35,110 nucleotides of DNA, taken from a virus. This document shows positions 5,335 through 31,471 of this stretch, in pieces. How positions within the stretch are numbered: position 1 is the stretch's first letter; every line of letters starts with the position of its first letter. The notes under the pieces are model-generated. The model was not told the origin of the DNA. It was given only the letters and a program-made list of their open reading frames with translations, and did not search any database. Where the stretch lies: the IMG/VR virus record IMGVR_UViG_3300046454_000570, positions 1 to 35,110 of that record. One strand, given 5' to 3'. Position numbers and translations under genes: made by a program.

Positions 5335-5353
5335 GGAGGAAGGAGGAACTCTC

Positions 5354-5977: not shown

Positions 5978-5983
5978 CGGTGG

Positions 5984-6035
5984 GAACTCAGCATAAGGTG
6001 TTGCGGCGTTCAGATGTTCGGCGTATTGTGAGTTC
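5984..6035 (+). repeat. Inverted repeat before zinc-ribbon gene
   Basis: GAACTCA (5984-5990) and TGAGTTC (6029-6035) form a 7-bp inverted repeat enclosing 38 nt, immediately before the AGGAGGTG ribosome-binding site of the next gene. CGGCGT occurs twice inside the loop. It sits at the right boundary of the endonuclease gene and could be a boundary relic or an RNA element. The stem is short and may be chance. Confidence 0.3.
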
Positions 6036-6049
6036 AAGGAGGTGTCAAG

Positions 6050-6325
6050 ATGGGCAAGACGAGCAAGCCATATACGTTCCTGGGAGTTCCGCTGTCCAGA
6101 CCAGTGAACGAGCAGCCGAAGACTCTGTTTGGGATACCGATTGTCTGGAGTGATGAGGTCTCTGGACCTCCCGAGGGCGGCAGCGAGATGGAAGCTCCTG
6201 TGTTCACAAAGCCGAATTACTATATGTGGACGTGTCTTGTCTGCGATGCCTGGTTCTCAACTGCGGGTCGTGATGATTGTCCGTTTTGTCGAGAGCCCCT
6301 TCCGGAAAAGCTGAGGGCCACTTAA
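6050..6325 (+). CDS. Small zinc-ribbon protein
   Basis: This 91-residue protein has a near-consensus Shine-Dalgarno (AAGGAGGTG) seven bases before ATG. The N-terminal half contains two similar pieces (FLGVPLSRPV and LFGIPIVWSD). The C-terminal half is a rubredoxin-like ribbon, CLVC-x12-CPFC, likely zinc-binding. Its stop is one base before the GTG of the portal gene, so it belongs to the head module. The role is unknown; small ribbons like this often bind nucleic acid or other proteins. Confidence 0.83.
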   Translation: MGKTSKPYTFLGVPLSRPVNEQPKTLFGIPIVWSDEVSGPPEGGSEMEAPVFTKPNYYMWTCLVCDAWFSTAGRDDCPFCREPLPEKLRAT

Positions 6326-6326
6326 C

Positions 6327-10532: not shown

Positions 10533-10535
10533 AGC

Positions 10536-10620
10536 CCCGATCGATATCGGGCCTGGGGCCGCCCCCAGTTCTTCCTGTCTATCAAGGTGTGCGTAAGTGT
10601 TAGCCTGGGGCCGCCCCCAG
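10536..10620 (+). promoter_or_regulatory. Three stem-loops with an 18-bp direct repeat before the capsid gene
   Basis: The gap between protease and major capsid gene holds CCCGAT-CGAT-ATCGGG (10536-10551). GCCTGGGGCCGCCCCCAG then occurs twice (10551-10568 and 10603-10620); each copy folds as CTGGGG/CCCCAG with a 4-nt loop. No T-run follows, so these are not classical terminators. They could stabilise a processed capsid mRNA or attenuate transcription. The capsid Shine-Dalgarno ACAAGGGG follows at about 10650. Confidence 0.6.
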
Positions 10621-10665
10621 GGGGAGACATCCGCATCGCCGGGTTCCCGCACAAGGGGACCATTC

Positions 10666-12606: not shown

Positions 12607-13104
12607 ATGCCGCGTCTCAAACTGTTCGTGAATCACCTTGTGGTGGCGCCTCTTGATCCTCCGGCTCCGTGCTGTGATCCCCACAAGGATCATGGCGCGG
12701 GCGAGGACTGCAAGAGGGCGCAGCGAGGTGTTGTGCTGTTCGTGGGTCCTGGCAAGGCGGCTTATTCGATTGCCTTCAAGCCAGGGGATGTGGTGTGGTA
12801 CGATCAGGGGGTCGGACACTGGGCTTCTGTCGGTGAGAATGATGTCGTTGTGATCGACGATTCCGAGGTCTTTGCGCTGGAGAGCGACCTGGAGCACGAG
12901 ACCGCCATCAAGAAGAAGGCACGGCAGGTGCTTCAGGATGCGGGGATCACCGTGGACGGCAAGTTCGAGGTTGATCCCAAGGTCTCGATCTGGCATGAGG
13001 ATGACGATCAGGATCACAAGGACACAGGCACGGAGCATGCTGCTGACCTTGGCCCTGATCCGCTTTCGGAATCCAGCCTGGGCCTCAAGAAGGCCACGGT
13101 TTAA
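12607..13104 (+). CDS. GroES/cpn10-like protein, degenerate mobile loop
   Basis: The 165-residue product has GGAGG six bases before ATG. Residues ~5-95 follow the cpn10 barrel: LVVAPLD strand, then RGVVLFVGPGK (G41-K50), FKPGDVVWYD and NDVVVIDDSEVFAL. Where GroES has its mobile loop with the GG-IVL GroEL contact, this protein has PAPCCDPHKDHG-AGEDC (C22, C23, H26, H29, C35), which looks metal-binding and lacks the hydrophobic tripeptide. The C-terminal 65 residues are acidic and His/Asp-rich. It lies directly before a better cpn10, so the pair may form mixed rings. Phage cpn10 such as T4 gp31 helps the capsid protein fold. Confidence 0.75.
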   Translation: MPRLKLFVNHLVVAPLDPPAPCCDPHKDHGAGEDCKRAQRGVVLFVGPGKAAYSIAFKPGDVVWYDQGVGHWASVGENDVVVIDDSEVFALESDLEHETAIKKKARQVLQDAGITVDGKFEVDPKVSIWHEDDDQDHKDTGTEHAADLGPDPLSESSLGLKKATV

Positions 13105-13121
13105 CCACACGAGTCCAAGCG

Positions 13122-13820
13122 ATGGTCCACCGCATCTCGCTGTTTGATGACTACATCGCGATCCTGCCCCTGGAGACCTCCTCGGTCTCCCAGGGCGGGA
13201 TCTTGATTCCCGAGACGGCGCGCAAGAAGTCTCAGCGCGGCCGGGTGCTGTTCGCGGGGCCAGGACGTCCGAAACCGGATGGTGAGAGCCGCTGGCCGAT
13301 GCCGGTGAATCCTGGCGACATCGCTCTCTACATGCAGTATGCCGGTCACGAGATCGATTCCAATGGGCATACGATCACGGTCATGAAGGCCAGCGAGCTG
13401 CTGGGCAAGATCGAGGAGATCGATGATCCGGCACTGAACGAGATCTTCAGGCCAGAAGAAGAGCCAGAAGACGAGATTCTCGATGTTCCCGAAGGCATGG
13501 AGAAACCCGCCTGTCCCCGATGTGGTCTGGAGTTGGTTCAAGAGGCATTCAGCTACAAATATTACGACAAAGAAATCCAGGCTTGTGGATGCGAAGATTG
13601 TGGACTGATCCGGATCAACGAGGACGGAACCACGGAGCGGATCTTTGGGCGGTGCAAGAGCTGCCAGAAGGTGGATGTGGTCAGGGCGACTCCGTTTGCT
13701 CTGGGCTGTCAATTCCGGGTCTCGGGATGTACTTGCCAGGATTCCCGGTTCGATCAACTGACTCGCGAGCAGGCCCTTCCCTACATCCGTGCTTACGATA
13801 GAGAGGAGGTGTCGCTGTGA
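13122..13820 (+). CDS. GroES/cpn10 co-chaperonin fused to zinc ribbons
   Basis: Residues ~4-97 are a clear cpn10: FDDYIAILPLE, a mobile loop SSVSQGGILIPETARKKS with the GroEL-contact tripeptide at G26-I29, then RGRVLFAGPGR, VNPGDIALYM and the last strand TVMKASELLGKI. Residues ~105-125 are an acidic linker. Residues 131-205 hold ten Cys in pairs (C131/134, C155/157/160, C178/181, C196/203/205), likely two zinc ribbons. A cpn10 with a zinc-ribbon tail is unusual. It would cap the host GroEL and may deliver the phage capsid protein. Start is ATG 13122 with a weak ribosome site, in keeping with coupling to the gene before. Confidence 0.88.
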   Translation: MVHRISLFDDYIAILPLETSSVSQGGILIPETARKKSQRGRVLFAGPGRPKPDGESRWPMPVNPGDIALYMQYAGHEIDSNGHTITVMKASELLGKIEEIDDPALNEIFRPEEEPEDEILDVPEGMEKPACPRCGLELVQEAFSYKYYDKEIQACGCEDCGLIRINEDGTTERIFGRCKSCQKVDVVRATPFALGCQFRVSGCTCQDSRFDQLTREQALPYIRAYDREEVSL

Positions 13821-14152
13821 AGATCCGCATTCTGGGTGAGACCGATCGTCCCGGGTTCTATCAGTTCTGTTATGTCACAGCCTCGCCTCGCTCCGAATCC
13901 AAGGAGGTCAAGACCGAGGCCAAGGACACCAGCCTCAAGGGCGACGAGTCGAAATCCAAGGAGTCCGATTTCGAGCTTGATCCGGATTTCGAGACCGATT
14001 CCGAGCCCAGGGAAGAGTGGGTGGATCAGACGGATGGCGGCAATAACGCCTATGACTCCGATGGCCGGAGGGTTCCCGTGGGTGTGATTGTCGATTCGGA
14101 GGTGACGGCTCTGGGTCACCGCATCCTCTGGAACCCGGAAGGCCCATCATGA
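13817..14152 (+). CDS. Acidic low-complexity protein
   Basis: The GTG start at 13817 has GAGGAGGTG six bases upstream and overlaps the previous stop by 4 nt. The 111-residue product starts with a beta strand (MKIRILGETDRPGFYQFCYV), then a highly charged Ser/Lys/Glu/Asp segment (~25-75) predicted disordered, and ends with GRRVPVGVIVDSEVTALGHR. No domain is recognised. It ends in ATGA with the glycosyltransferase gene. It may be a partner or substrate of its neighbours; this is inference from position only. Confidence 0.72.
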   Translation: MKIRILGETDRPGFYQFCYVTASPRSESKEVKTEAKDTSLKGDESKSKESDFELDPDFETDSEPREEWVDQTDGGNNAYDSDGRRVPVGVIVDSEVTALGHRILWNPEGPS

Positions 14153-15240
14153 GCCGTCTTCGCGTGGGCTTTCTGGTGCCCCAGTTGAGTCGGACGGGCG
14201 GCACCGAGACCTGGCACCAGATCCTGATCAGGAGCCTCAAGGATCATCCTGAGATCGAGGTCGTGGGCCTTGGTGTTGTCGAGGATCATCCGACCCACGA
14301 AGAAATTCGGCCTTTCGAGGATCTCGGGTGCTTTGTGGGCCGGTGCCCTTCGGAGGTTTCCGGGATCATCCAGGAGTCTCATATCCTGATTACCTGGGGA
14401 ATGGGTGATCTCGAGTTCATCCAGAAATCCAGCGATGTGGCACGGGTCACGATGGTCGCGCACGGCGACGGCCAGTTCCCCGAGTTCGTCCAGGCCAACC
14501 ATGATGCCTCACCCTGGGTGGATCAGTATGTTGCGGTCTCCCAAGCTGCGCTGGAGGCGATTCCAGAAGATCGTCGCGAGGACGCCACGGTCATCTGCAA
14601 CGGTGTCAATGAGGACCGTCTGGTTCCTCGGATTACCCGTGTGGGTCAGCGTGATCTCTGGGGAATCCCCCAGGGTGCCAGGGTGCTGGGCATGGTGTGT
14701 CGCGCGTCCCAGGAAAAAGACCCCAAGGCCCTGATCCGTGCCATCAGCAATCTGCCCGATTACTGGTACGGTGTGCTCGTGGGTGATGGTCCCGAGCTGC
14801 TCAACTGCGCCGCCAGCGCCTATGGCCAGACGACCCGGTGTTTCTTTCCTGGGGCGCAGGAAGATATTGGTAGTGCCTATCTGGCCATGGACTGTCTGCT
14901 CTCGGCCAGTCTCTCCGAGGGGTTCGGATATTCGGCACTGGAGGCCATGATCCTGGGGTTGCCCGTGGTGGCAACGCCTGTGGGCATCCTGCGCGATGCG
15001 GAGAAATCACACGCATGTCCCGTCGAAATCGTCCCAGTCCACAGCCCAGGCAACCTGCTGGCTCAGGCAGTGGAGCGAGCCGCGATCAAGATCACGAACG
15101 AACAGGGCCAGAACCTTCTGAGGTTTGCGAGCCTGACCGTGAAGACCAGTTACTCGGCAGAGACGTTCTGCCGGAAGTGGACCGATTACCTTCTGAGGCT
15201 TCCATGCAAGAACAGAGCGCTTTCCTCGACAGCCCCTTGA
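14149..15240 (+). CDS. Glycosyltransferase, GT4-like (GT-B fold)
   Basis: The 363-residue product matches the GT-B group 1 family, which moves sugars from NDP-sugar donors. The N-terminal Rossmann domain has LVPQLSRTGGTE with the acceptor GG loop. The C-terminal domain has VLVGDGPELLNC and the family E-x7-E motif, SEGFGYSALEAM (E257 and E265), then GLPVVATPVG. No membrane segment or signal is seen, so it is cytoplasmic. It overlaps the previous gene by 4 nt and lies within head genes, which points to glycosylation of a virion protein, host receptor or nearby acidic protein. The length is standard for the family and it looks intact. Confidence 0.9.
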   Translation: MSRLRVGFLVPQLSRTGGTETWHQILIRSLKDHPEIEVVGLGVVEDHPTHEEIRPFEDLGCFVGRCPSEVSGIIQESHILITWGMGDLEFIQKSSDVARVTMVAHGDGQFPEFVQANHDASPWVDQYVAVSQAALEAIPEDRREDATVICNGVNEDRLVPRITRVGQRDLWGIPQGARVLGMVCRASQEKDPKALIRAISNLPDYWYGVLVGDGPELLNCAASAYGQTTRCFFPGAQEDIGSAYLAMDCLLSASLSEGFGYSALEAMILGLPVVATPVGILRDAEKSHACPVEIVPVHSPGNLLAQAVERAAIKITNEQGQNLLRFASLTVKTSYSAETFCRKWTDYLLRLPCKNRALSSTAP

Positions 15241-15551: not shown

Positions 15552-16802
15552 ATGCCTGTGATCCCGCTGGTGACTCTCTCTCAGGTCGTGGGAGAGCTTT
15601 CCGGAGCCTTGCCGCAGGATCAGAGTGCCCTTCCGGCTCTGATCCTTGCGGCTTCGCGTGCCGTGCAGAAATACTGCACGCGGGATTTCGCCTACTGGAA
15701 TTATGACGAGACCTATGACGGCAACGGTTTCTCGCAACTGGTGCTCCGGCAATACCCCATCAACCGCATCTACCGGCTCTCCTGTAATCCCACCCCTGCG
15801 ATCACGATTGATAACCGAGACACGTCTAACAATCAGATCGCGCTCGTCAATCTGGCGACGATCGGTGATAGCGACTCCGGTCTCTCCGTGGTGGGCCTCT
15901 CCCTGAGTGCCACGGCATCAGGGGTGACCACGAGCTACGGGTTCTTTTTCAACACACCGCCCGTGTTCACGTTCACGGTGGCGGCTTCAGGTACGGGAGG
16001 CTCGATCGCTCCCGGAACGTATCTGTGTGCCTATTCGATCGTGGGCTCCTCGGGCGAGAGCGTGCCCTGTCCGCTTCAGTCCGTGACGGTGACCTCGGGC
16101 CAGGTGCTCACGTTCGATCTTCCGCTCCTGCCGGTGAACGGCACGGGATACCGGATCTATGTCTCCACCACCAACGGAGGGGCCGGTACGATCACCCGCC
16201 AGGTCACGGGTGTCACGGGCGTGGTCACGCTCTCCTCGTTGACCTCCGGAGCAGCTCCAGCTGCTGCTGCGAACCTCACGATCCAGGCGCTGACCAGTGC
16301 GATCAATGGCCTCAGTACAGCCTGGGTCGCAAAGACGATTCAGAACTTTGCCCTTTATCCTACAGCCGATATCCGGCCCATCCTGAGCGTGCAGGGAGCG
16401 CTCCAGGGGAATGGGAGCGGAGCAAGCCTGGACGTCTACGCTACGGAGCTTTCCGGTTACACTCCGAACTATACCAGGGGAATCATCAATCTAGGCACGG
16501 GCGGCAATTATGATCCCGTGTTTTCCCTGGGTGGCACGAGTGTGTTCTCCGGTTTTCCCTGGGGCGTCCAGAATATTCGCGTGGTCTACGATGCTGGCTT
16601 TGCCACGGTGCCCGCGGATGTCCAGCAAGCGGTGATCTGCACGATTCAGGACTGGATCTGGCAACTGAAGAAGGCGTGGGTGTTTCGCAAGGAGACGGGT
16701 GATCGTTATTCCTACGAGTTCTTTGATCGCAAGCGCATGGGCCTTCCCGATAACGCCAGAGCCATCCTGAACAACGGCTGGCGATCGTACCGGAGGAATT
16801 GA
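15552..16802 (+). CDS. Head-tail connector (gp6-like) with an inserted beta-sandwich domain
   Basis: The N-terminus (1-75) is typical of gp6/YqbG-like connectors that form the ring under the portal: LILAASRAVQKYCTRDFAYW, then QLVLRQYPINRIYRL. The C-terminus returns to that family (IRVVYDAGFATVPADVQQAV, then IQDWIWQLKKA). Between them, about residues 145-225, is a fibronectin III-like insert with GSIAPGTYLCAYSIVGSSGE and GTGYRIYVSTTNGGAGT. The 416-residue length is more than twice a usual connector (~100-190), because of this and a Ser/Thr/Gly-rich part. The next gene starts within its stop. Confidence 0.82.
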   Translation: MPVIPLVTLSQVVGELSGALPQDQSALPALILAASRAVQKYCTRDFAYWNYDETYDGNGFSQLVLRQYPINRIYRLSCNPTPAITIDNRDTSNNQIALVNLATIGDSDSGLSVVGLSLSATASGVTTSYGFFFNTPPVFTFTVAASGTGGSIAPGTYLCAYSIVGSSGESVPCPLQSVTVTSGQVLTFDLPLLPVNGTGYRIYVSTTNGGAGTITRQVTGVTGVVTLSSLTSGAAPAAAANLTIQALTSAINGLSTAWVAKTIQNFALYPTADIRPILSVQGALQGNGSGASLDVYATELSGYTPNYTRGIINLGTGGNYDPVFSLGGTSVFSGFPWGVQNIRVVYDAGFATVPADVQQAVICTIQDWIWQLKKAWVFRKETGDRYSYEFFDRKRMGLPDNARAILNNGWRSYRRN

Positions 16803-17188
16803 TGCTCAATGGTCCCTCGCCAAACATCACCACGAACACCATCGATATCTACGCGAGAGCAACGGCGTACTCGGGCGATGGCGATCTCGATGGTAATGCA
16901 GGTTATCCTTCGATTGGAACGCCGTCTTTTTCGACCGTCCCCTGTTCCGTGCAGCTATACAACGCTGACCTTGCTGATCCGTCACTCAAGGCGAATGTGA
17001 TTTTTTTTGGCTCCGTGCTCTTCAATGTGGATGATTTTCCTGCGGGTTACACGCCGAGGTATCGTGACAAGTATCTCTGGATTGATGGTCTAGGAACCAC
17101 ACATACGCTCTTCACGACATTGCCGATCGATCAGGCAGGGGGCGGCAAGGCGTTCGAGGTTCCGGTAATCGAATACACCAGGGGATGA
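16802..17188 (+). CDS. Probable head closure / head-tail joining protein
   Basis: The ATG at 16802 overlaps the TGA of the connector by one base, after GGAGG. The 128-residue beta-rich product has VIFFGSVLFNVDDFPAGYTP and a late LFTTLPIDQAGG segment, in keeping with stopper or head-closure proteins that follow the connector in this gene order. The family match is weak and rests mainly on size and position. Confidence 0.65.
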   Translation: MLNGPSPNITTNTIDIYARATAYSGDGDLDGNAGYPSIGTPSFSTVPCSVQLYNADLADPSLKANVIFFGSVLFNVDDFPAGYTPRYRDKYLWIDGLGTTHTLFTTLPIDQAGGGKAFEVPVIEYTRG

Positions 17189-17195
17189 GACTGGT

Positions 17196-20100
17196 ATGTC
17201 AGCAGTTAATTGTATCGCCAGCGTGGCCTTGTCGGGCGAGACGATCATCGTTGCGCTCACAGATTTTGGTGGTAGTCCCACGAATGTGCTGTCCTATGCC
17301 ACTACGGTCACCGAACTGATCGACGTCCGCGCGGCTGGTGGGACATACACGCTCGAATTTCCGCCCACAAGCGGCCACATAACCTCCGCTCTGGCGGTTG
17401 GTGCTCCGGCGGCGACGGTCCAGGCGGCGCTCGAAGCCCTATCCTCGATCGGAAGTGGCAATATATCGGTTGTGAGCGAATACCCTTATCAGGCGACCTT
17501 CCTTAACACGCTGAACACGCCTCAGCCGCTGTTCACGGTGGACAAGACAGGACTCTCGGCGACCTCCAGCGCCGCACCGCTCACGGCCGGAACGACGGCG
17601 CAGCAGATCCTCGATGCCAGCACAAATTTTGCGAAGGTCGGTGCTGCATGGACAGCTACCGGATTCGGGTCAGGGTCGGGCTGGAAGGTTGTTGCTGACG
17701 GATCGGGACTCAATACGGCTGAGTGGACGATCACCGGGCTCGCCACCGGAAACTACAATATTTATTATGCCAACAGCGGGCCAACGGGTTCTGGAAATGC
17801 TACGACCGTTCCCTGGCGGTTCTTCGACGGCAGCGCTCCGCGCGTGAAGACGATCGTCAATCAGCAGGCACTGGTTCCGGATAATTTCGCTCTGCCTGGT
17901 GATGCTTCTGACGCTTTTCAGCTTCTCGCTACTGTTTATATCTCATCTGGTACGCTCCGCGTCCTCGTGACCGATCAGGTTGCGGGTGGCGACATCGGCA
18001 AGCTCGTTTGCGTGAACAAGATCGGTATCGTGCCGGTTGATCCCGCTGTGAATTTGATCCTCGATGGTGCGCACACACCTGCCTATCTGTTCTTCGCAGG
18101 TGGATCTTGGGGGAGCTTTGCTGCCGACTGGAACAACTCCCAGCACTTCTCGAATGTGTCGGGCGGTTCGGCAACCTGGCTGTTCCTGGGACTCATTCCC
18201 GGCTCGACCTACAAGGTCCAGTCTCAGTGGGGCGAGCAGAGTAATCGATCTACGAACTGTGTCTATTCGATTATCGACAGTGATGGCACAACTGTGCTGG
18301 GGACGTCCTCGGTCAATCAGCAGGTCGCTCCCGCGGGCGGACAGACGCTCACCGATTCGTTGAGCCAGACGTTCACGTTTCAGGATCTTGGCACCTACAC
18401 GCCCACGGGGACCTCGCTCCGTCTTGTCCTGCCGATCGCCACGGGTGGTAACTACACGATCGCGTCAGGGGCACTGGTCCAGCTCCAGACCGCCGCAGGC
18501 TACGCCGAGCCGGTATCGTCTTCGGTGGCGAACCTCTCGACCGGGCCGCCCACGATCACGATCAACGGATCGGATACACGGACTTTGGTCAGTCCGAACT
18601 GGCCGACATCTCAGAACCCACCAGCCAATTTCATGGGGTTTCTTGTTCCTGGATCGCCGATCCTGACGACGGACACCGTGACGATCAGTATCTCGGGCAG
18701 CTCGATCGGTACATCAGCAGGAACGCTGCCCACCGTCACGAATCAGGCGGTGGTGAACTCGGTCGGCAAGTCGCTGGGCAGGACGATGCCGGGCTCGCGA
18801 CCGCTCAAGGTAGGATGGAATTTTGCTGAACTCGGGCAGGGATTTGTTCCGCTCTATGCCAACATGGTGAAGAATAACGTGGGCTGGCAAACGCTCGCGT
18901 CTGCGGCTGATCTGACCGCGGATCTCTTGCCCAGGTACACATCAAATACTGGCAATTATTTCATGCAGTTCGGTCAGAGTGGCCCGCCAAACGAGACCTC
19001 CTCGGAAGGCTTTCCGCTCTGGCCACAGACCGGTACGACGACTTTTATCCTGGATGGAGCGGTCACCGGGTTCCCGACGATCCTTCCCCAGCCGGGAACC
19101 ACGATGGCGTTTCAGTCGATGGACACCGGCCACGCCACCGGGAACACAATCAAGATCAACTTCGCCGTTGATGGCTCGAACACGACCTTTGCGCCACAGT
19201 TTAATTTCTACGCACCCACCGGGCTCATGGATATCTGCGACGATGCGGATACCGGGCGGTTCTCCATCGCGGCGGGGACATGGACGGTTCAATCGGGTGG
19301 ATGGAACGGTCACTATCATCGCAACAGCAAGCTCGCAACCGATAAGGCGGTGTTCACCTTCGGAGCGATCCCGGCGGGCAACTGGGAGGTCGCGATCTGC
19401 TGGGTCGGCAACGCCGCCAATACGACCACGGCAAATGTGGTCGTCAAGGAGGCGGGTGTATCGGTTGCGAGCTATACCGTTGATCAGACCACGTCACCAT
19501 CCGCAACTGTTAACGATTACAATCATGCGGTATTTGGATTCGACCTGGGGACGGATTTCGTCTCCACGGGCGGCATCATCACCGTCGAGATCACGGGCGG
19601 TACGGATGGGTGGTGCCTGGCCGATGCGGTGCGGATCAAGTGCGACAGCACGCTCGGCTCGCCGATCGTGCCGATGACCGACTTCAAGGTCTATCCGCCT
19701 GATCCGGACATTGATCCTGCCAGTCCGCCCAAGTTTCACCCGATCTTTCTGCGAAAGTTCGCGGGCGTGGGCTCGCTGCGCTCGATGATCCTGTTCGACT
19801 CGAACTTCGGCTGCTACACGGAACTCAGTGATTATGCGAGCCAGACGCAGCTTTATTATGGTGGCGAATGGGGGCAGAACCAGTACACCATCACGCAGGT
19901 AGAGACGTGGTCCGATCCGAACGGGGATTGGACGGCAAACGCGGATATCTGCCCGGCCCTGTTCACCGTGACGCCGATCAATGGAGCGCCGTTGCCCCTG
20001 ACCAAGGGATTCAAGGGCCAGTTCCCCACACCGCTCGTGGTCAAGTACACTGACTGGACCAGCGGCAACGGTCACGTCATCGACTTCTCCTTGCTGCTCA

Positions 20101-22214
20101 ACTGGATCGAGTACGATCCGGTCCACATGGCGACGAACCAGTTTGCCTGTGGAAATTTCGCTTTCGGGCCGCATGCCCTGACAACTCTGAACCCGACTGC
20201 GCCCTGCACCATCTCGTTCGGGCGTTCCGGGATTCCGATCGCAGACTACTTCGAGCTTTGTGTTGATGTTGGCTGTACTGTCCACCTGAATCTGACCTCG
20301 ACAGTCTCACAGACGTGCATCGACGACGTTGCGGCGCTCTACACGTCGATCGTGCCGGTTGGCACCAAATTTATCCTGGAAATCTCGAACGAGCCCTGGA
20401 ACTTCCGGTTTCCCGACTTCGGCTATTTCGGCGCACTCGACATCGAACTGGGTCTTGGTAGCGAGCTGCATGCCTACGCCAAGGTGGCCTCCGATCGTCA
20501 TGGCTGGATGACCACGGCGCTCGGCTCACGTTCGGGCGAGTTGATCCGTGCGTTCAACTGCCAACTCGACGATTTTTCCACCGGCGCACAGGTGCTCGAC
20601 TATTGCAACACGAATAGCAAGCCGGTGGATCTCATCCTGGTCTCGGATTATCTGGGGCCATATCCCGCATTGCAGCCGGGACTCGATGCTACTTACGAAC
20701 TGTGTACCGCTGGGCATTCAGTCGATTTCGTCGATGCTTGGCTGAACGTCTCGACCCGGTTCTCGGCTCAGTTCATCGGCTGGCAAGCCACGGCTGTCGC
20801 TCAATCGACGGCTGCGCCGCTTTCGCGGCATTGCGACTGGGGGATCTACGAAGGCGGCCAGTACACCAACGGCATGGGCGGGTCCACTCCGACCATCAAT
20901 CGGCAGTCCTATGCGGGTCGATACCATCCGCTCGAATACCAGGTAACGATCAGTTACATGGCGATGATGCAGTTCTATGGGGCCACTTACTACAATCACT
21001 TCTGCATCGATCAGAGCCCTGGAGCCTTTGCTCTGTTCGGCGTGTACTACGGCTATGACGCACTTGCGGGCAAGGGCGACGGCTCCGACGGCAAGCACAA
21101 TAACTTGCCGGATATCGCAGGTGTCCCGCCTGGTGTCGTGGACTTCAATACGGCGGTGACACCGATCGGTCAGGCATACGATGATTGGAACTCGGGCGCA
21201 ATTGTTGCCACGACCTACACGCTTACTGCGCCAGCACCCTCAACAGGAAAACCCGGAACAGCTTCCGCGGACTTCACGGTCCAGTGCGATGCCATACCAT
21301 CGTCTCCTGTGACCATCACGCCGGCTGTGGGCTCAGGTGGCGGCGGAACATTCACGCCATCAAGCCTTCTGGTCTCGGATGCCAATCCGCACACATTCAA
21401 ATACACACCTTTCAGTACCGGCAACAAGATCATCGCCTGCACCAATGATGGTGGGCTGACTGATCCAGGGGCCGTTACCTTCACGGCTTATTCGCTCGCG
21501 GTTTCGCCGGGTGCTCAGGAAGTTGCGGTCAGCACGGCGGCGACCATGACGGCAACGCTTACGGGTGGCACGGGCAGCCTCACGGCTTCAACAGATGTGG
21601 GAACGCTCTCCACGACCACGCCGACTTCCGGGACTCCGTTCACGCTCACGACTCCTTCAAGTGGGTCGGGCCATGCCACCGTGACCGTGACCGGTCCAGG
21701 CGGAACAAGCGCAGTGGCTCGGGTTTATTTCCCTGTAAGCGGTGCTCAGTACCCCTTCAGTCCGATCGGAGACAGAATGAACTTCCTGCCCTCGAATTAT
21801 CGGATCAACGTCTACAACGGACTCCAGGTCCCCACGCCACCCAACAAGATCACGCTCACACTCTCTCCCTATACGGTCGTGAGTGGGTCCAAGGTACCCG
21901 GAAGCGATGTACCGATCATCGCGCCCTCGGACGGATCACCCGCCAGTGCGGCCATTCCCGCAAGCTCCTATGGGGCAGCCGCCAAGATCACAGGGAACAC
22001 GAACCTTTCGGGCGATCTGGCCTGCTCGATTGACCTTTCTGGAGTGGCAGGTCTGAAGCCGGGAGGCACGATCTCCTTCTATCTTCAGGTCTGCGGAACC
22101 ACGATCAATCCACCCGATGGCAAGGGCCTGGTGGTGCTCACGATCCCGATTGACAAGGCGGGCGTCTTCACGGGAACGGTCTGTCTTGATGGACTGCTTC
22201 CGCTACTGAATTGA
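17196..22214 (+). CDS. Giant virion adhesin with golvesin-like modules and a GH-A-like glycosidase domain
   Basis: The 1672-residue product is modular. Residues ~40-125 contain a phage-type beta module (GGTYTLEFP, AATVQAALEALSSIGSGNI). Three golvesin/xanthan-lyase-like carbohydrate-binding modules follow at about 135-280, 290-435 and 680-818, with YKVQSQWGEQSN and GWCLADAVRI signatures. A TIM-barrel-like part (~870-1320) carries ILEISNEPWN (N1065-E1066), the clan GH-A acid/base motif, and IYEGGQ (E1219), a candidate nucleophile. Two Ig-like modules follow (~1331-1515). No signal peptide is seen. It probably binds and cuts capsule or exopolysaccharide on the virion surface. Its place between head closure and tail genes is unusual. 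Confidence 0.85.
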   Translation: MSAVNCIASVALSGETIIVALTDFGGSPTNVLSYATTVTELIDVRAAGGTYTLEFPPTSGHITSALAVGAPAATVQAALEALSSIGSGNISVVSEYPYQATFLNTLNTPQPLFTVDKTGLSATSSAAPLTAGTTAQQILDASTNFAKVGAAWTATGFGSGSGWKVVADGSGLNTAEWTITGLATGNYNIYYANSGPTGSGNATTVPWRFFDGSAPRVKTIVNQQALVPDNFALPGDASDAFQLLATVYISSGTLRVLVTDQVAGGDIGKLVCVNKIGIVPVDPAVNLILDGAHTPAYLFFAGGSWGSFAADWNNSQHFSNVSGGSATWLFLGLIPGSTYKVQSQWGEQSNRSTNCVYSIIDSDGTTVLGTSSVNQQVAPAGGQTLTDSLSQTFTFQDLGTYTPTGTSLRLVLPIATGGNYTIASGALVQLQTAAGYAEPVSSSVANLSTGPPTITINGSDTRTLVSPNWPTSQNPPANFMGFLVPGSPILTTDTVTISISGSSIGTSAGTLPTVTNQAVVNSVGKSLGRTMPGSRPLKVGWNFAELGQGFVPLYANMVKNNVGWQTLASAADLTADLLPRYTSNTGNYFMQFGQSGPPNETSSEGFPLWPQTGTTTFILDGAVTGFPTILPQPGTTMAFQSMDTGHATGNTIKINFAVDGSNTTFAPQFNFYAPTGLMDICDDADTGRFSIAAGTWTVQSGGWNGHYHRNSKLATDKAVFTFGAIPAGNWEVAICWVGNAANTTTANVVVKEAGVSVASYTVDQTTSPSATVNDYNHAVFGFDLGTDFVSTGGIITVEITGGTDGWCLADAVRIKCDSTLGSPIVPMTDFKVYPPDPDIDPASPPKFHPIFLRKFAGVGSLRSMILFDSNFGCYTELSDYASQTQLYYGGEWGQNQYTITQVETWSDPNGDWTANADICPALFTVTPINGAPLPLTKGFKGQFPTPLVVKYTDWTSGNGHVIDFSLLLNWIEYDPVHMATNQFACGNFAFGPHALTTLNPTAPCTISFGRSGIPIADYFELCVDVGCTVHLNLTSTVSQTCIDDVAALYTSIVPVGTKFILEISNEPWNFRFPDFGYFGALDIELGLGSELHAYAKVASDRHGWMTTALGSRSGELIRAFNCQLDDFSTGAQVLDYCNTNSKPVDLILVSDYLGPYPALQPGLDATYELCTAGHSVDFVDAWLNVSTRFSAQFIGWQATAVAQSTAAPLSRHCDWGIYEGGQYTNGMGGSTPTINRQSYAGRYHPLEYQVTISYMAMMQFYGATYYNHFCIDQSPGAFALFGVYYGYDALAGKGDGSDGKHNNLPDIAGVPPGVVDFNTAVTPIGQAYDDWNSGAIVATTYTLTAPAPSTGKPGTASADFTVQCDAIPSSPVTITPAVGSGGGGTFTPSSLLVSDANPHTFKYTPFSTGNKIIACTNDGGLTDPGAVTFTAYSLAVSPGAQEVAVSTAATMTATLTGGTGSLTASTDVGTLSTTTPTSGTPFTLTTPSSGSGHATVTVTGPGGTSAVARVYFPVSGAQYPFSPIGDRMNFLPSNYRINVYNGLQVPTPPNKITLTLSPYTVVSGSKVPGSDVPIIAPSDGSPASAAIPASSYGAAAKITGNTNLSGDLACSIDLSGVAGLKPGGTISFYLQVCGTTINPPDGKGLVVLTIPIDKAGVFTGTVCLDGLLPLLN

Positions 22215-22574: not shown

Positions 22575-23282
22575 ATGGCGCAATCGACCAAGAGCCTCCT
22601 GTTCGGTGGCGTCGACGGCCTGGTGAGCAGTGGCAACACCGCTGTCCTGGCCAGCGCGACCGCGTTCAGCGCCTCGTTCTGGGTCAAGCCCGACACTTCC
22701 CAGGGCAGCTTGCCCCGGCTCTTCCAGATCAACGATGCGGACAAGTTCTATTTCCTCCTCCTCGGCACCGCGACGGATATCCGCTTTTCCATCAACGGCG
22801 CGACGATCGATGGCACGATCACGGCGAGCGTGTGGAATCACGTCGCGGGGACGTGGAACGGAAGCACGTTCAAATTGTTCGTGGGCGGCACACAGGTCAA
22901 CAGCGGCTCTGTAAGCGGATCGTTCGATCCGACCGGAGTCAACCTCTCTCTCGGCAATCGGTTTTTGACGGATCGCCCATTCAAGGGTGGGCTCGATGAT
23001 ATCTTCATGTGGGCATCGGACATCGGCGCGACCAACGTCGCCAATATCGCCTCGGGCGCGACAGACGCGGCGACGCTCTCACCCGTCTTTTCCTGGCGAC
23101 TTGAGGCGGGCAGCGGCACCAGTGCGGCGGATGGCGTCGGCAGCAACACGGGCACGCTCTCGGGCGGCGTGACCTGGTCCAGCGACGTGCCGGCGGCGCT
23201 AGGCGGTGGCGGAGGCGGTTCGGCAGTCGGAGCGGACGCGATGCACTATTACTTGCGGCATGTCGCCGGGGCGGGGCACTGA
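22575..23282 (+). CDS. LamG/concanavalin A-like lectin protein
   Basis: The 235-residue product is one LamG-type jelly roll (about 8-185): FSASFWVKPDTSQ, WNHVAGTWNGSTFKLFVGG and LSLGNRFLTDRPFKGGLDDI are the family landmarks. It ends with a poly-Gly linker and a short C-terminal HYYLRHVAGAGH tail. LamG domains bind sugars. Here it would be a receptor-binding part of the virion, next to the glycosidase. It is separated by 3 nt from the gene before and ends on an ATG overlap with the next. Confidence 0.83.
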   Translation: MAQSTKSLLFGGVDGLVSSGNTAVLASATAFSASFWVKPDTSQGSLPRLFQINDADKFYFLLLGTATDIRFSINGATIDGTITASVWNHVAGTWNGSTFKLFVGGTQVNSGSVSGSFDPTGVNLSLGNRFLTDRPFKGGLDDIFMWASDIGATNVANIASGATDAATLSPVFSWRLEAGSGTSAADGVGSNTGTLSGGVTWSSDVPAALGGGGGGSAVGADAMHYYLRHVAGAGH

Positions 23283-25324
23283 TGTCGCTATTCAAAAATA
23301 CAGCCAGTCAAAAGGTGTACGTATTCGCGTTTGACGCCACGACGGGCCTACCCAAAACAGGCGACGCAGCCAACATCACGGCATCGATCGCCAAGGATTT
23401 CGGAGCAGCGGCGGACCTGACTGATACGTCCGCGACAGAGGTAGACTCGACGAAGGCCAAGGGTTATTATCTTTTCGACATCTCCCAGACCGAGACCAAC
23501 GCCGACGATATCGCGATCACCGCCCGCAGTTCGACCTCGAATATCGTGGTCGTCGGTGCGCCCGCTCGGATGGCGACTCGACCGCCGAACGCCGGAGCGC
23601 TGGCGATCGATTCCAGCGGTAAGGTGCTCTTGCAGGCGACGCAATCCGGCGTGACGATCCCCACGGTCACGAATCTGACGAACCTTCCCGCCGTGCCTAC
23701 TGATTGGCTCACAGCAGCGGGCGTCAAGGCGGACGCGGTGACGAAGATCCAGGCGGGTCTCTCCACCTATGCCGGAGCCGACACGAGCGGGACGACCACG
23801 CTACTGGCTCGGCTCACGGCGCTCCGAGCGGGCTACCTTGACAACCTCTCGGGTGGTGCGGTGGCGCTCGCCGCTGGTGTGATCGTGGCAACCAACAACG
23901 ACAAGACCGGCTATTCGCTCACGCAAGCCTTCCCGACAAACTTCGCGGCGACCTCGATCTCGGTAGGTGGCAAGGTCGCGGCGACGGTTGCATCGGGAGA
24001 CGATGCCGACGCGGCTTCGATCAAGACGACCATCGGCACGGCAGGCGTGGGACTCACGAATCTGGGTGATACACGAATTGCTCACCTCAACGCCGACGTG
24101 TCAAGCCGGATGGCGACTTACACGCAACCGACCGGCTTCCTTGCCGCGACATTCCCGAGCACCGTGGCGGACGAGTCCCTGATCATTGCGGCGACCAACG
24201 CACTGGCCACCGCCATCGGCTCGCCCATGCAGGCGGGCTCAACCGTAGTTCTGACAGACGCATCGCTCACCACGGCGAAGCTCGGAACGTTCGCGCTGGC
24301 CAAGGGGACGAACCTCACCGGATTCAATGACGTGACGGCGGCGGCGGTGCGGGACGTGGACAACACAAGCCCCGCCGCTGGATCGCTCGGAGCCAAGGTG
24401 AATTCCGCCGCTTCCGCTGGCGACCCGTGGGCAACGAACCTACCCGGGGCGTATGGGGCCGGCACGGCAGGAAATATCGTGGGTAGCCAGCTTGATGCGG
24501 CGGTCTCGACCCGTTCTACCTATGCAGGTGGAGCAGTCGCTTCGGTCACGGCTCCGGTCACGGCCGGTACGGTGACCGACAAGACAGGATATTCCCTGGC
24601 CAGTCTCCCTGCGATCCCCACCGACTGGATCAGCAGCGCAGGCGTCAGTGCGGCTGCGGTCACCAAGATCCAGGCTGGACTCTCGACCTATGCAGGTGGT
24701 GACACGAGCGGCACCACCACGCTCCTGACTCGGCTAAGTGGCACTCGAGCGGGCTACCTCGATAACCTTTCGGGCGGTGCTGTGGCACTTGCTGCTGGTG
24801 TGATCGTTACCACGAATAATGACAAGACCGGCTATTCCCTCACGACGCTTCCGGCTCTACCCACCGACTGGATCAGTGCGGCGAGCGTCTCGGCGGCAGC
24901 GGTGACCAAGATTCAGGCCGGGATCAGCGCGGCCTCGGTGTGGGACCTGGCTACAACGGGACACACCACCTCCGGTACGTTCGGTGCGGCCATGCAGGCA
25001 GCGGGCAGCTCCGGAGATCCCTGGGCCACGAACCTGCCGGGAAGTTATGGAGCGGGGACGGCTGGCAATATCCTGGGGACGTCCTCAGCAGGTGACAAGA
25101 CCGGCTATAAGCTCGCGGCCGATGGGCTCGATGCGGTCATGATCGAGACCGGAGTCAATGCTCGTCAGGCCCTCCAGGTCATCGGAGCCGAGGCCGCTGG
25201 TAAACTGGTAGTCGATGGATCGGGCGACTTCACTTTCTCGGCGCTGGCCAATCCTGGCACCATCCGAATTGTTGCGACCACGAATTCCACGGGACGAACA
25301 GCAGTCACCCTCACGACAACCTGA
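23282..25324 (+). CDS. Repetitive tail-fibre-like protein
   Basis: The 680-residue product starts with a small domain (1-100; KVYVFAFDATTGLPKTGDAA) seen in phage fibre or baseplate proteins. It is Ala/Thr/Gly-rich after that. A ~79-residue unit occurs at 135-213 and 442-520, with a partial third copy at 523-550, featuring PTDWISAAGVSAAAVTKIQ-like and AGYLDNLSGGAVALAAGVIV motifs. A second unit, DPWATNLPGAYGAGTAGNI, recurs at about 380-400 and 578-598. The C-terminus (640-680) is a beta module. It is likely an elongated trimeric fibre or adhesin. Confidence 0.82.
   Translation: MSLFKNTASQKVYVFAFDATTGLPKTGDAANITASIAKDFGAAADLTDTSATEVDSTKAKGYYLFDISQTETNADDIAITARSSTSNIVVVGAPARMATRPPNAGALAIDSSGKVLLQATQSGVTIPTVTNLTNLPAVPTDWLTAAGVKADAVTKIQAGLSTYAGADTSGTTTLLARLTALRAGYLDNLSGGAVALAAGVIVATNNDKTGYSLTQAFPTNFAATSISVGGKVAATVASGDDADAASIKTTIGTAGVGLTNLGDTRIAHLNADVSSRMATYTQPTGFLAATFPSTVADESLIIAATNALATAIGSPMQAGSTVVLTDASLTTAKLGTFALAKGTNLTGFNDVTAAAVRDVDNTSPAAGSLGAKVNSAASAGDPWATNLPGAYGAGTAGNIVGSQLDAAVSTRSTYAGGAVASVTAPVTAGTVTDKTGYSLASLPAIPTDWISSAGVSAAAVTKIQAGLSTYAGGDTSGTTTLLTRLSGTRAGYLDNLSGGAVALAAGVIVTTNNDKTGYSLTTLPALPTDWISAASVSAAAVTKIQAGISAASVWDLATTGHTTSGTFGAAMQAAGSSGDPWATNLPGSYGAGTAGNILGTSSAGDKTGYKLAADGLDAVMIETGVNARQALQVIGAEAAGKLVVDGSGDFTFSALANPGTIRIVATTNSTGRTAVTLTTT
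23684..23920 (+). repeat. Internal coding repeat, copy 1
   Basis: This 237-bp segment of the fibre gene encodes the unit that recurs at 24605-24841. The protein is nearly the same in both copies, but many third codon positions differ, so the copies are old and kept at protein level. Confidence 0.75.
24605..24841 (+). repeat. Internal coding repeat, copy 2
   Basis: Second copy of the 237-bp unit at 23684-23920. A third, partial copy starts at about 24848 (LPALPTDWISAASVSAAAV) and runs for some 84 bases before diverging. Copies 2 and 3 are adjacent. Confidence 0.75.
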
Positions 25325-25326: not shown

Positions 25327-25818
25327 ATGCCGTTCTATCCAGGCAACTACTACAACCCGACGGGACTTACACCGACCACTGATGTCGATCTGGTAGCGGC
25401 GTGCATCGCCTGGCTGCGCTCTTACAACAGCGGTTCCGTGGCATCCGCGTTTGGTGACACGGGACCAACCGGGAATAGCAAGTTCCAGTCCGATGACCCC
25501 ACCAACCAGGACCCGCCCTATCTCTTCTTTCTGGAACCGGAATCCCAGGAATCCTACGAGAACACCGGGGACTCGATCGAACAGGGAATCCTGGCTGTTC
25601 ATATCTTTGCGGGTAACCTTCGCCAGGCCAAGTCACTGAGCAAGCAAGTCATCGACGCACTCAACGATGTCCCTCTTGCTTTTTCTTCTGGGACGCTTCT
25701 TTATCTCCGGAACATCCCCAAATTTGTGCGACCTTCTTCCGAGCCGGGTGTGGGTATTCCTGTGGAGCGGGAGCGGATCATCGGCTTCCGGTATCTGATC
25801 GAGGGGGCCTCCTCATGA
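25327..25818 (+). CDS. Probable tail terminator / tail completion protein
   Basis: The 163-residue product has the general form of DUF3168-like tail terminator proteins: an N-terminal helix (DVDLVAACIAWLRSY), a PPYLFFLEPE strand, then ILAVHIFAGNLRQAKSLSKQ and VIDALNDVPL, ending with strands. These proteins cap the tail tube at the head end. The start is only 2 nt after the fibre gene stop with no clear Shine-Dalgarno, so it probably depends on coupling. The last bases overlap the next gene by 4. Confidence 0.65.
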   Translation: MPFYPGNYYNPTGLTPTTDVDLVAACIAWLRSYNSGSVASAFGDTGPTGNSKFQSDDPTNQDPPYLFFLEPESQESYENTGDSIEQGILAVHIFAGNLRQAKSLSKQVIDALNDVPLAFSSGTLLYLRNIPKFVRPSSEPGVGIPVERERIIGFRYLIEGASS

Positions 25819-26630
25819 ACTTATTCAACGTGGTCTGGAACTGGTTCGGCAAGGGCGCGACTCAGTACGTCGAGGACAAAGCCGATAAGTTCTTGATCCA
25901 GGTCGGCAAGGGCGCGGTGTCCTGGGCGCGTCATTACGTGCCCGTGGATACTGGAGAACTCCAGAATTCCATCGGCTTCACGTACCAGCAGCGCGACTCG
26001 AACGGCGAGAAGCGGCTCACTCTTCATGCCGATACGCACTATGCGTTCTTCGTGGAGTACGGCACCCGCTTCATGCTCCCCCAGCCATTCCTTCGCCCCG
26101 CACTCCTGAAAGCAATTCCCTGGAATGTGAGGACCACCCTGGAATTCGGGCAGATCCGCCAAGGTGGAGAGAGTATATTTGGAACCAGGGGTGGTAGTGT
26201 GCATGCTCCGAAAGCCAACGCTCAGGTGATTCATATCGGTAATCGCATGAATCGGGTGATCGATCAGAAGATTGCCTCCAAGTTCCGGGGTCGTACACCT
26301 CCTCGTCTGGAGTTCATGGGACGATCGGCTGCAAGTACCCCTCAAGTTCATGCCAAGTACGCAGGGGGAAGACCAGGCACAACCGGAACCGGGGGAAGAC
26401 CAGGCACAACCGGAACCGGAGGAAGGCCACGGGGCATGTCGGGATCGAGCAGAAGTGGTTCAGGCACAGCCCGAACAGGCGGCCAGCCTGCGAGACGAAA
26501 CAGAGTAGGCCAGATCAACTGGCACCGATTTTTACGAGGTGGCGGCGGCGGCGGCGGTGGTGGTGGAAATTATGGTCCAGAAACAGGTCCAGACTCTAAT
26601 GAGGAGTCCACCGATTGGCGACGGCACTAG
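25815..26630 (+). CDS. HK97 gp10-like neck/tail protein with low-complexity tail
   Basis: Residues ~1-105 match the HK97 gp10 family: HYVPVDTGELQNSIGF, YAFFVEYGTRFMLPQPFLRP. Such proteins join head and tail. The normal protein ends near 110-160; here 271 residues continue into a basic region (~105-180), then a Gly/Arg/Ser/Thr-rich segment with two GRPGTTGTG repeats and a run of ten Gly (~243-252). This part is predicted disordered. The low-complexity tail is encoded by a 27-bp tandem and GGC/GGT codons. Its role is unclear. Confidence 0.82.
   Translation: MNLFNVVWNWFGKGATQYVEDKADKFLIQVGKGAVSWARHYVPVDTGELQNSIGFTYQQRDSNGEKRLTLHADTHYAFFVEYGTRFMLPQPFLRPALLKAIPWNVRTTLEFGQIRQGGESIFGTRGGSVHAPKANAQVIHIGNRMNRVIDQKIASKFRGRTPPRLEFMGRSAASTPQVHAKYAGGRPGTTGTGGRPGTTGTGGRPRGMSGSSRSGSGTARTGGQPARRNRVGQINWHRFLRGGGGGGGGGGNYGPETGPDSNEESTDWRRH
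26364..26417 (+). repeat. 27-bp perfect tandem repeat (two copies)
   Basis: Two exact copies of a 27-bp unit (starting GGGGGAAGACCAGGCACAAC) lie head to tail at 26364-26390 and 26391-26417, with a partial third piece after them. The unit is nine codons, so copy number can change without a frameshift. Confidence 0.85.
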
Positions 26631-27374: not shown

Positions 27375-27401
27375 CCGGCGCCCCAGGAAGAGGAGAGATT
27401 G

Positions 27402-27806
27402 ATGGCCAAGCTCACGGGAAAATCCGGCACGATCACGATTGCCGGCAACCAGTTGAATTTCACCAAGTTCGGGACAAATGTGGCCAGGACCCTGGCAGAC
27501 ACCACAGATAACCAGAACTACGATTCGGGAAGCGACCTGATCTGGAAGAGTCAGCTTCCGGTCACCAGTAACGTCGAGATCGAGGTCTCGGGCTGGTACG
27601 ACACCTCGATCACCTCGGCCGCCCTCACCACCATTCTCTTTACTGGGGCGCTGGCAGTGTTGTGCTCGATCAAGTTCTCCACGGGCACCACCTTCGGTCA
27701 CGGCGCTTTCGACATCACCGATTTCAAGGCGGATGTGCCCGTGGATAACACCATTGGCTACTCCTGCAAGTTGGTATCGAACGGGGTGTTCGTGGCCAAC
27801 AGTTGA
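27402..27806 (+). CDS. Tail tube-like protein, paralogue 1
   Basis: The ATG at 27402 (TTG 27399 is adjacent) follows an AGGAAGAGGAGAG site. The 134-residue product is all-beta: a first strand set (GKSGTITIAGNQLNFTKFGT), VEIEVSGWYDTSI, LCSIKFSTGTTFGHGAFDIT and YSCKLVSNGVFV. Its size and place, before the tail chaperones and tape measure, fit the tail tube. The next gene encodes a clear paralogue. Which one builds the main tube is unclear. Confidence 0.75.
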   Translation: MAKLTGKSGTITIAGNQLNFTKFGTNVARTLADTTDNQNYDSGSDLIWKSQLPVTSNVEIEVSGWYDTSITSAALTTILFTGALAVLCSIKFSTGTTFGHGAFDITDFKADVPVDNTIGYSCKLVSNGVFVANS

Positions 27807-28886: not shown

Positions 28887-29420
28887 ATGTCGCCAAGACG
28901 AAACAAATCCTCCGAACCCCCTCCATTTCTTTCTGGGACGCCCCAGGAGCCATCGCTCAAGGTTTCAGCCACTCCGGAGCCGGAAATGCCCCTGGACGCT
29001 CCTGAGCCCATCCTGGAGCCAATGGCGCTGTGCGTGGACGGCAAGGACTATCCGCTCAAGCGCATCGGCCTTCCGGAACTCACCCAGTTCCTCGCCTGGG
29101 TCAAGAAGCGCCGACCTGATCCTCTGGAGCAGATTGCTTCCAGGATGGACCTGTTCTCTCCAGCGCTTCAACAGATCATGATGAAGGAAGCTCTGGCCCA
29201 GTTTTATAAGCCGATCACGATGGCTTCATCCGAGTACCTGGAAGCTTTCATGACGGACGAGGGCCTCAAAGAGCTGGTCTGGTACTCGGTCCAGAAGACC
29301 GGACATGCAATCAGCCGTGAGCAATGTGATAAGGCAGTGGATGCGATCCAGGAAGAAGGGGGAGAGGGTCTGGGTCGGCTCTTTGCCACGGTTGCTCCGA
29401 ACATGAAGGGTCTCTCGTAA
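28887..29420 (+). CDS. Probable tail assembly chaperone, second ORF
   Basis: The 177-residue product begins with a Pro-rich stretch (about 8-46; PPPFLSGTPQ, then EPEMPLDAPEPILEP), then a helical domain (YPLKRIGLPELTQFLAWVKK; LFSPALQQIMMKEALAQFYK). It lies one codon after the previous stop, in the same frame, with only a weak GGGA ribosome site. In most siphophages the equivalent partner is made by frameshift; here a stop separates them, and re-initiation or readthrough would connect them. It ends in TAATG with the tape measure gene. Confidence 0.65.
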   Translation: MSPRRNKSSEPPPFLSGTPQEPSLKVSATPEPEMPLDAPEPILEPMALCVDGKDYPLKRIGLPELTQFLAWVKKRRPDPLEQIASRMDLFSPALQQIMMKEALAQFYKPITMASSEYLEAFMTDEGLKELVWYSVQKTGHAISREQCDKAVDAIQEEGGEGLGRLFATVAPNMKGLS

Positions 29421-31471
29421 TGGCTGCTGGATTCGCCGCTGGTGCTCTGACTATCGGCCTGAACATGCCGGTGGGCGCCTTCCTGCATGCGGTCGGCCAG
29501 GTGAGCAGGGCGATGGTTGGCCTGACTGCTCAGTTTGTTCGATTATCCATGACCAATCTTAGTGAGACCTTTGATCAGACCACCGTCAAGGCCATGAACC
29601 TGGAGACCCAGCTCGCGATCCTCAAGACCACCACGGGTCTTTCCGGTAAGGAGCTGCAAGGTCTCGGTAAGCAGATCCAGAACCTGGGCCGCACCATGTC
29701 GGGTGTGGACATCGAGAGCCTGTTCAGTGTGGCCACGTTTGCGGGTCGTATTGGTTTAGCCGGCGACAAGATCGTCGAGTTCACCAAAGATGTGGCCATG
29801 ATCCAGGCGGTTCTTCAGGACATCCCCGCGGACGAGGTGGCGCTGCGCATGCAGCAGATCCTCGACGTCTTCGGACTGGGTGCCGAGAAAGCGCTGCGGT
29901 TTGCCTCGGCCTTGAACGAATTAGACAAGCGATCCAAGGCCACGGGTCGTGAGATCATGGCCATGACCGCGCAAATGGCGGGACATGCGGTCATCCTGGG
30001 AATTACTGTACAGGAGACCATGGCCTTAGCTGCGGTCATGCGTGATGCGGGTATCGAGGTGGCGATCGGCACCACGGCGGTGGATCAGGTGCTTGCCCGG
30101 ATGGCCACGCATACTGCGGAGTTTGCGGCTGTTGCTGCGGCGGCTGATCCCTCGATCACATTCAAGAAGTTCTCGGAGGTCATGAAGACCAATGTCCTGG
30201 ACGCCCTGGGCCTGTTCATCAAGGGCCTGCGCCAGTTCGATAAGTTCAGCCAGTTCAAGGTTCTGGACGCCATGAACCTGGAGGGTCGGCGCACGGCTGG
30301 GACCTTGCTGAAGCTGGGCTCGCAGTTCGAGCGGCTCAAGACTTACATCCGGATGGCCAATGGAGAGTTTGCGAGTGGCGCCAGTATCCTGCGCGACTAT
30401 GCCACGATGGCCGAGACGACCGAGAACAAGCAGAAGCGCTTTCTTAATATTCTTGCGATTGCCAGTGCCGAGATCGGGACCAAGCTACTGCCCATCGTGA
30501 ATGCGTTCATGGACGCGATGATTGCTCTGACTGAAGCATTCATGCGTTTCTTCGAGTCCATCAAAGGAAAATTCACGAGCATTGCCGATGAGATCGCCAA
30601 GTTCGTCAGTATCTTTGGTTTAATCGGAGAGGATTTTAATGATGTTGTTGATTACATGCTCCTGAAGTTTCAGTCTCTCTGGGGAAATTTCAAGATTTTG
30701 TGTATTAATGCTATTGGTTTCATGATTGATAATTTTGAAGCAGCAGTTATGTTAATGTGGAAAATGGGAACAAAGATGTTTACTGCCATGTTTTCTCCTG
30801 GCTTTGGAAAGGGTGCAGATTTCGATCCGTTCAAGGCTCTCAGGGAATCCCTTGATGAAATGAGAAAAGAAATAGATCCCATCACTGGAAAGACACGTGA
30901 GTTCAGATTTGGTGATCTTTTCAAGGATGTTGGAGGAGACACACTCTCTGGAGAGGACGCGGAACGTCGGGATGAACTTGAGAAGAAGTTCACAGGAAAA
31001 CTCAGGAAACGAGAACGCGAGCGCAGGCGCGCCGAAGATCCCGAGAAGTTTGACAGGGAGATGATGCTTTTCGATCTGGAGATGGGTGCTTCTCCAGAAG
31101 AAATGCTTGCGGACCTCGTCAAAAAAAGAGTTGATGCTGCCATGTTTGATATCGAGACGGGACTCTCATCTCCCGAGGAGATCCTGGCTGGTGGTCCCGG
31201 AAGCGATCGCGCCAGCTTACATGGAAAACGGACCTTTGATGAGCATACGGGTAAAAAGACTCCAGGAACCTATGCCTTGGCGGAATACTACAAGGCCCTT
31301 CAGTCCGGATCGATGGAGAGCGATGCCAAGAAGACGCGCGAGTTCATCGCATCGATCGCCCGGGGTGAAGCCACTTTATCTGTCCGGATCGCAGGTGGTC
31401 CCGCTCCCGCGGTTCCCGGTTTCGGATTTGGGCCAGGCATGATCTTTGGTGGCCTCCTGGCGGGACCGTGA
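29420..31471 (+). CDS. Tape measure protein
   Basis: The 683-residue protein shows the PhageMin_Tail pattern: LETQLAILKTTTGLSGKELQ, LFSVATFAGRIGLAGDKIVE, ITVQETMALAAVMRDAGIEV and ILNILAIASAEIGTKLLP-like hydrophobic helices. Two hydrophobic stretches lie around 350-385 and 430-455. The C-terminal third is charged (KLRKRERERRRAEDPEKFDR). By the rule of ~0.15 nm per residue the tail would be about 100 nm. Codons between about 30600 and 31000 are AT-richer than the rest. The start is ATG in a TAATG overlap. Confidence 0.93.
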   Translation: MAAGFAAGALTIGLNMPVGAFLHAVGQVSRAMVGLTAQFVRLSMTNLSETFDQTTVKAMNLETQLAILKTTTGLSGKELQGLGKQIQNLGRTMSGVDIESLFSVATFAGRIGLAGDKIVEFTKDVAMIQAVLQDIPADEVALRMQQILDVFGLGAEKALRFASALNELDKRSKATGREIMAMTAQMAGHAVILGITVQETMALAAVMRDAGIEVAIGTTAVDQVLARMATHTAEFAAVAAAADPSITFKKFSEVMKTNVLDALGLFIKGLRQFDKFSQFKVLDAMNLEGRRTAGTLLKLGSQFERLKTYIRMANGEFASGASILRDYATMAETTENKQKRFLNILAIASAEIGTKLLPIVNAFMDAMIALTEAFMRFFESIKGKFTSIADEIAKFVSIFGLIGEDFNDVVDYMLLKFQSLWGNFKILCINAIGFMIDNFEAAVMLMWKMGTKMFTAMFSPGFGKGADFDPFKALRESLDEMRKEIDPITGKTREFRFGDLFKDVGGDTLSGEDAERRDELEKKFTGKLRKRERERRRAEDPEKFDREMMLFDLEMGASPEEMLADLVKKRVDAAMFDIETGLSSPEEILAGGPGSDRASLHGKRTFDEHTGKKTPGTYALAEYYKALQSGSMESDAKKTREFIASIARGEATLSVRIAGGPAPAVPGFGFGPGMIFGGLLAGP

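Follow-up and report, generated by a model that had tools for sequence, protein, structure and literature searches.

The locus analysed here raises the question of why a virus should carry the gene for a giant, glycosidase-like protein between its head-closure and tail genes, and where the product would act. The window (the whole stretch of DNA that was analysed) is a 35,110-base IMG/VR virus record from an uncultured tailed phage, a fragment without tRNA genes. Its genes run from TerL, portal, head protease, major head protein, GroES-like genes, glycosyltransferase, adaptor and probable stopper through the giant protein, a 110-aa protein, LamG, a fibre-like repeat protein and tail completion to HK97-gp10/Neck1, a major-tail-like gene and the tape measure (Table 1). 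An earlier note on this DNA had set the gene between head closure and tail genes, and this placement was confirmed by the phrog_442 adaptor upstream and by Tail_completion_gp17, HK97-gp10 and the tape measure downstream. The stopper candidate had no family match, and a gene of similar size occupies the equivalent place in the sister locus L284. Neither the major head protein nor the adaptor of the window found relatives when scanned against IMG/VR. Other features of the head block were also observed. Two adjoining head-module genes (12607-13820) match the GroES co-chaperonin family (phrog_3188), the second at E 5.7e-16 and the first weakly. A GT4-type glycosyltransferase gene (14149-15240), whose product possibly decorates the virion or the host surface, lies within the head block before the adaptor. 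The adaptor itself is unusually long, its adaptor-family matches being split by an apparent beta-rich insert that is perhaps a neck decoration.

Table 1. Features of the giant-protein locus, in window coordinates
Feature	Coordinates	Strand	Basis or remark
Head-tail adaptor (phrog_442)	15552..16802	+	Long insert in the middle
Probable head-closure (stopper) protein	16799..17188	+	Position after adaptor
Giant modular protein, 1672 aa	17196..22214	+	Single open frame; family profile match
N-terminal module, aa 1-135	17196..17600	+	Related segments at 61 IMG/VR loci
Golvesin-like module 1 (weak), aa 136-285	17601..18050	+	Pfam at E<=1
Golvesin module 2, aa 285-436	18048..18503	+	Pfam; module 3 query
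Predicted barrel strand 1 (aa 538-542, KVGWN) and beta-rich segment of family N-terminal part	18795..19235	+	Model
Golvesin module 3, aa 680-814	19233..19637	+	Best Pfam stretch; predicted to nest between barrel strands 1 and 2
Rest of predicted GH-A-type barrel, aa 829-1335	19680..21200	+	Paludisphaera prophage relative; model
E1066, predicted acid/base, end of strand 4 (SNEPWN)	20391..20393	+	47/47 in alignment, partly circular
E1219, predicted nucleophile, end of strand 7 (YEGGQ)	20850..20852	+	45/47 in alignment
C-terminal part, aa 1337-1672: Ig-like-looking modules and C-terminal domain	21204..22211	+	Appearance only
Small protein, 110 aa	22239..22571	+	
Laminin_G_3 lectin-like protein	22575..23282	+	Pfam E 3e-21
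Repetitive fibre-like protein	23282..25324	+	Relatives in at least 260 IMG/VR stretches
Tail completion gp17-like protein	25327..25818	+	Pfam E 7e-5, just below curated cut-off
HK97-gp10 / Neck1-like protein	25815..26630	+	phrog_5 E 8e-15; Pfam
Major tail protein-like (weak)	27399..27806	+	phrog_1407 E 1.6e-3
Tape measure protein	29420..31471	+	phrog_13339 E 3e-26; PhageMin_Tail

The reported length of 1672 residues was exact, in one open frame. As a whole, the giant protein matched none of 50,697 phage genomes by tblastn and nothing in the PDB by phmmer, and an IMG/VR scan with it as the query found no relatives. Golvesin_C (PF25275) was the sole Pfam family detected on it (E 1.8e-13; 51.1 bits against a gathering cut-off of 31.6); a relaxed limit of E<=1 gave three stretches, the best at residues 680-814. 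When this third module alone was used as the query, the 285-436 module was recovered at E 3e-7 (best of 500 shuffles, E 2.5e-3) and the 136-285 module was not. Therefore, of the three golvesin-like modules claimed previously, modules 2 and 3 are firm and module 1 is weak. The Ig-like modules had no Pfam match and are so read by appearance. Segments related to residues 1-135 occur in many phage proteins, mostly as internal modules; an attachment role for this N-terminal module was considered and dropped, since such a distribution does not evidently mark an anchor. No neck-attachment domain was recognisable in the giant protein, and no signal sequence was evident.

The affinity of the catalytic part emerged from weak tblastn matches in plasmids, which pointed to Shinella, Rhizobium, Novosphingobium and Gloeothece proteins with E-x-SNE-x-WN and YEGG in common; the Shinella plasmid member (L002 3335-4861) has an O-antigen ligase gene on one side and a polysaccharide export gene on the other. 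A family HMM built without the window scored the giant protein at 91.7 bits (E 2.7e-26 at Z=10,000), and the best of 200 shuffles reached 6.9 bits. The profile match and the presence of both motifs place the giant protein in this SNExWN/YEGG family, from the rest of which it diverges (14-21% identity in alignment A3, 47 sequences). The family was found in at least 116 IMG/VR stretches by profile scan and at 56 loci in bacterial genomes of many phyla, both scans relying on the SNExWN pattern. Most members are 500-600 aa long and without golvesin modules, and Golvesin_C was absent from 43 viral records carrying the family. For the catalytic domain, no Pfam, NCBIfam or PDB family was found with the giant protein or the members searched, 0 of the 47 sequences in A3 matched PHROGs, and no Pfam GH model assigned the giant protein or its relatives to GH5, GH39, GH51 or GH79 by sequence. 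Against the 50,697 phage genomes, the GH part alone gave a chance match only, and two viral family members gave none. A literature search of partial coverage found no published family with these features, which counts as weak evidence. Some cellular members look secreted, and the family as a whole resembles an as yet uncharacterised type of exopolysaccharide enzyme with a spread across many phyla.

Residues 525-1340 were modelled with AlphaFold together with 47 sequences. The model had a mean pLDDT of 58 and a pTM of 0.70, with values of about 90 or above for strands 3-5 and below 50 for the inserts. Strands were modelled at residues 538-542 (1), 1028-1033 (3), 1059-1063 (4), 1116-1123 (5), 1146-1150 (6), 1214-1220 (7) and 1263-1268 (8), and strands 1 and 3-8 follow one another in barrel order. 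The best VIA-align matches were GH51, GH79, GH39 and GH5 barrels (Z 18-22, with a maximum of 21.9, over ~260-330 residues), which we take to be members of clan GH-A; Foldseek matches were weak, the best being a galactanase at E 1.2e-3. The giant protein resembles these enzymes in its barrel, in Asn-Glu at strand 4 and in Glu at strand 7, but shares only 8-14% identity with them in the structural alignments. These results support a predicted clan GH-A-type (beta/alpha)8 barrel at residues ~535-1335; the model and the independent family profile thus agree with the GH-A-like domain of the earlier note and with its view that the fold lies outside the common phage beta-helix depolymerase class.

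The first strand was assigned from the model (pLDDT about 85, with VIA alignments beginning at model residue about 9), in a region where the family HMM has no score. Strand 2, not resolved in the model, is expected at LRSMILF (861-867) from the LRFMDW motif of the family; a strand at residues 831-833 was considered for this role and proved to be KVY of the preceding beta segment. Given the order of strand 1 in the model and the strand-2 motif, golvesin module 3 would be nested between strands 1 and 2, at the site of the family's beta-rich insert, which would set the protein apart from the clan GH-A enzymes above. A further insert (~880-1000) lies between strands 2 and 3.

The proposed catalytic residues fit this model. 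NEPWN begins at residue 1065 and IYEGGQ at 1217, as had been read; N1065-E1066 follows strand 1059-1063 and E1219 lies within strand 1214-1220, so that both glutamates are at the expected strand ends, and both are conserved in the alignment. For E1066 the conservation is in part circular, as relatives were searched for with the SNExWN pattern, whereas the YEGG motif was no part of that search and the conservation of E1219 is independent of it. By analogy with the clan, the predicted glycosidase would use a retaining mechanism. Binding-only barrels are known in general, and the divergence of the giant protein from its family (14-21% identity) would suit a catalytically dead barrel that serves as a lectin; however, both catalytic glutamates and the surrounding motif residues are intact, and such a loss of activity is very improbable. 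The giant protein is, with high confidence, an active GH-A-type enzyme.

The nearest relative is a 983-aa protein, LamG fused to GH, in a prophage-like region of Paludisphaera soli (Planctomycetota). It is 24% identical to the giant protein over 534 columns (E 1.8e-26) and has both glutamates and a GDGSDGK...PIG motif in common with it. The same region holds a TerL segment 41% identical to the TerL of the window and a major-head-like gene; its GH gene lies downstream of the tail genes, with a 693-aa presumed tape measure upstream of it. Searches of 294 planctomycete genomes with the GH part gave one strong match (Paludisphaera) and two weak ones, and relatives of the window's major head protein occur in 29 of 392 genomes of the Planctomycetota, the phylum searched. 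The window TerL also resembles those of actinobacterial phages. A planctomycete-like host is plausible.

The position of the gene was compared with that in other phages, the locus coordinates of relatives having been renumbered by hand to those of their contigs. In L092, an unrelated myophage, the order is protease, MCP, phrog_302, two proteins, the GH family gene, Neck1, sheath and tape measure. L054/L058 have TerL, the GH family gene and the tape measure, with a tail-fibre-like gene beside the GH gene, and in L013 the GH gene follows TerL and a presumed portal and precedes a presumed major head gene (the last two identified by eye). The GH family gene comes after the tape measure in L070, L067 and L076. 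That host-binding enzymes are usually encoded after the tape measure is a fair general rule, but the position in the window is not unique, since the family precedes the tape measure elsewhere.

The syntenic sister L283/L284 keeps the adaptor (38%), the fibre, tail completion (31%) and the 26850 gene (45%), and has two other large proteins in the slot of the giant protein (L284:2885-4573 and 4576-7533). These look like parallel beta-helices by eye; PDB searches and two beta-helix Pfam models did not establish this, nor did a single-sequence AlphaFold model (pLDDT 34). The fibre protein at 23282 had no match in the 50,697 phage genomes (INPHARED). Just upstream of fibres of its type, LamG was found in 4 of 27 records and beta-helix proteins in two. 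These arrangements support the view that surface-glycan modules are exchanged as a cassette in the slot between head closure and tail completion, with a barrel version in the window.

Gene order alone does not show where a product sits in the virion. The gene block suggests that the giant protein is probably a virion component. It could instead be a soluble late enzyme that acts outside the particle and, once freed by lysis, loosens the host matrix; soluble phage depolymerases do exist (PMC5380687). A non-structural role is possible because some relatives resemble secreted proteins of cells, and the L013 relative (9332-10885) begins with a lipoprotein-like signal, which may indicate a phage version of the glycosidase exported by the cell. 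The giant protein itself, however, has no evident signal sequence, and its many adhesive modules and its place in the structural block beside a fibre gene suit a virion protein, so that we consider the soluble form improbable.

Attachment at the neck or head is plausible because the slot recurs in unrelated phages and because neck fibres with carbohydrate-binding modules are known. In the part of the literature covered, the neck passage structures of lactococcal 936 and P335 phages have fibres with carbohydrate-binding, beta-helix or esterase-CBM-like domains, one fibre module bound host cells, and no barrel glycosidase appears among their classes (PMC6669499). The gene of the giant protein likewise lies near connector and tail-completion genes. 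In contrast to the lactococcal fibres, no BppU-like N-terminus was recognised in the giant protein, which had no PDB sequence match; the two would be alike in concept and are unlike in fold. Phage depolymerases are generally found in tail fibres or tailspikes and are beta-helical, with one pre-neck appendage named as an exception (PMC5380687). Compared with beta-helix tailspike depolymerases, the giant protein would do the same job, degradation of host surface polysaccharide, with a different fold and gene place.

That general rule also favours the same enzyme being carried on the tail tip or tail tube, its gene having moved as a cassette, in which case gene position would say nothing about placement. 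The position of the family gene varies among phages, and the nearest homologue and the L070, L067 and L076 relatives are encoded after the tape measure, presumed or recognised, which also speaks against the neck. On the other side, a coupling to connector assembly is suggested by the use of one slot in the window, in L092 and, with other proteins, in L284. We regard a tail location as possible but rather unlikely, and a mounting at the neck or head rather than the tail tip as having a somewhat less than even chance.

Our best explanation for the locus, with about even odds as a whole, is a structural, polysaccharide-degrading phage enzyme from an exchangeable slot, perhaps mounted at the neck. 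In this scheme, the golvesin modules and the adjoining LamG protein would hold the host surface polysaccharide, the adjoining repetitive protein would serve as a fibre, and the products of the block would most likely project from the head-tail junction. In the barrel, E1066 would act as acid/base and E1219 as nucleophile in the cleavage of a glycosidic bond, and the glycan would be cleared as the particle advances to the envelope.

The top viral structural match, a GH5-domain protein of Pseudomonas phage POR1 (BFVD; Foldseek E 1.6e-3; 14% identity), indicates that barrel glycosidases have a precedent among phages. The assignment of the giant protein as a barrel glycosidase of an unnamed family is well supported, and its gene occupies a position that is unusual but recurs in other phages. 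The family has no library entry, yet it occurs in more than 100 viral stretches and many bacterial phyla, and it is directly testable, as small cellular members exist. The fullest reading, a new clan GH-A family that supplies tailed phages of planctomycete-like hosts with a depolymerase mounted on the neck, its barrel containing a lectin-like module and its gene lying in an exchangeable slot at the head-tail junction, is tentative and on balance doubtful. A barrel glycosidase in a neck slot would add to the enzyme toolbox and broaden the view of the sites at which phages place their sugar-cutting enzymes; it would also offer a way into the surface glycans of planctomycetes, which have been little studied.
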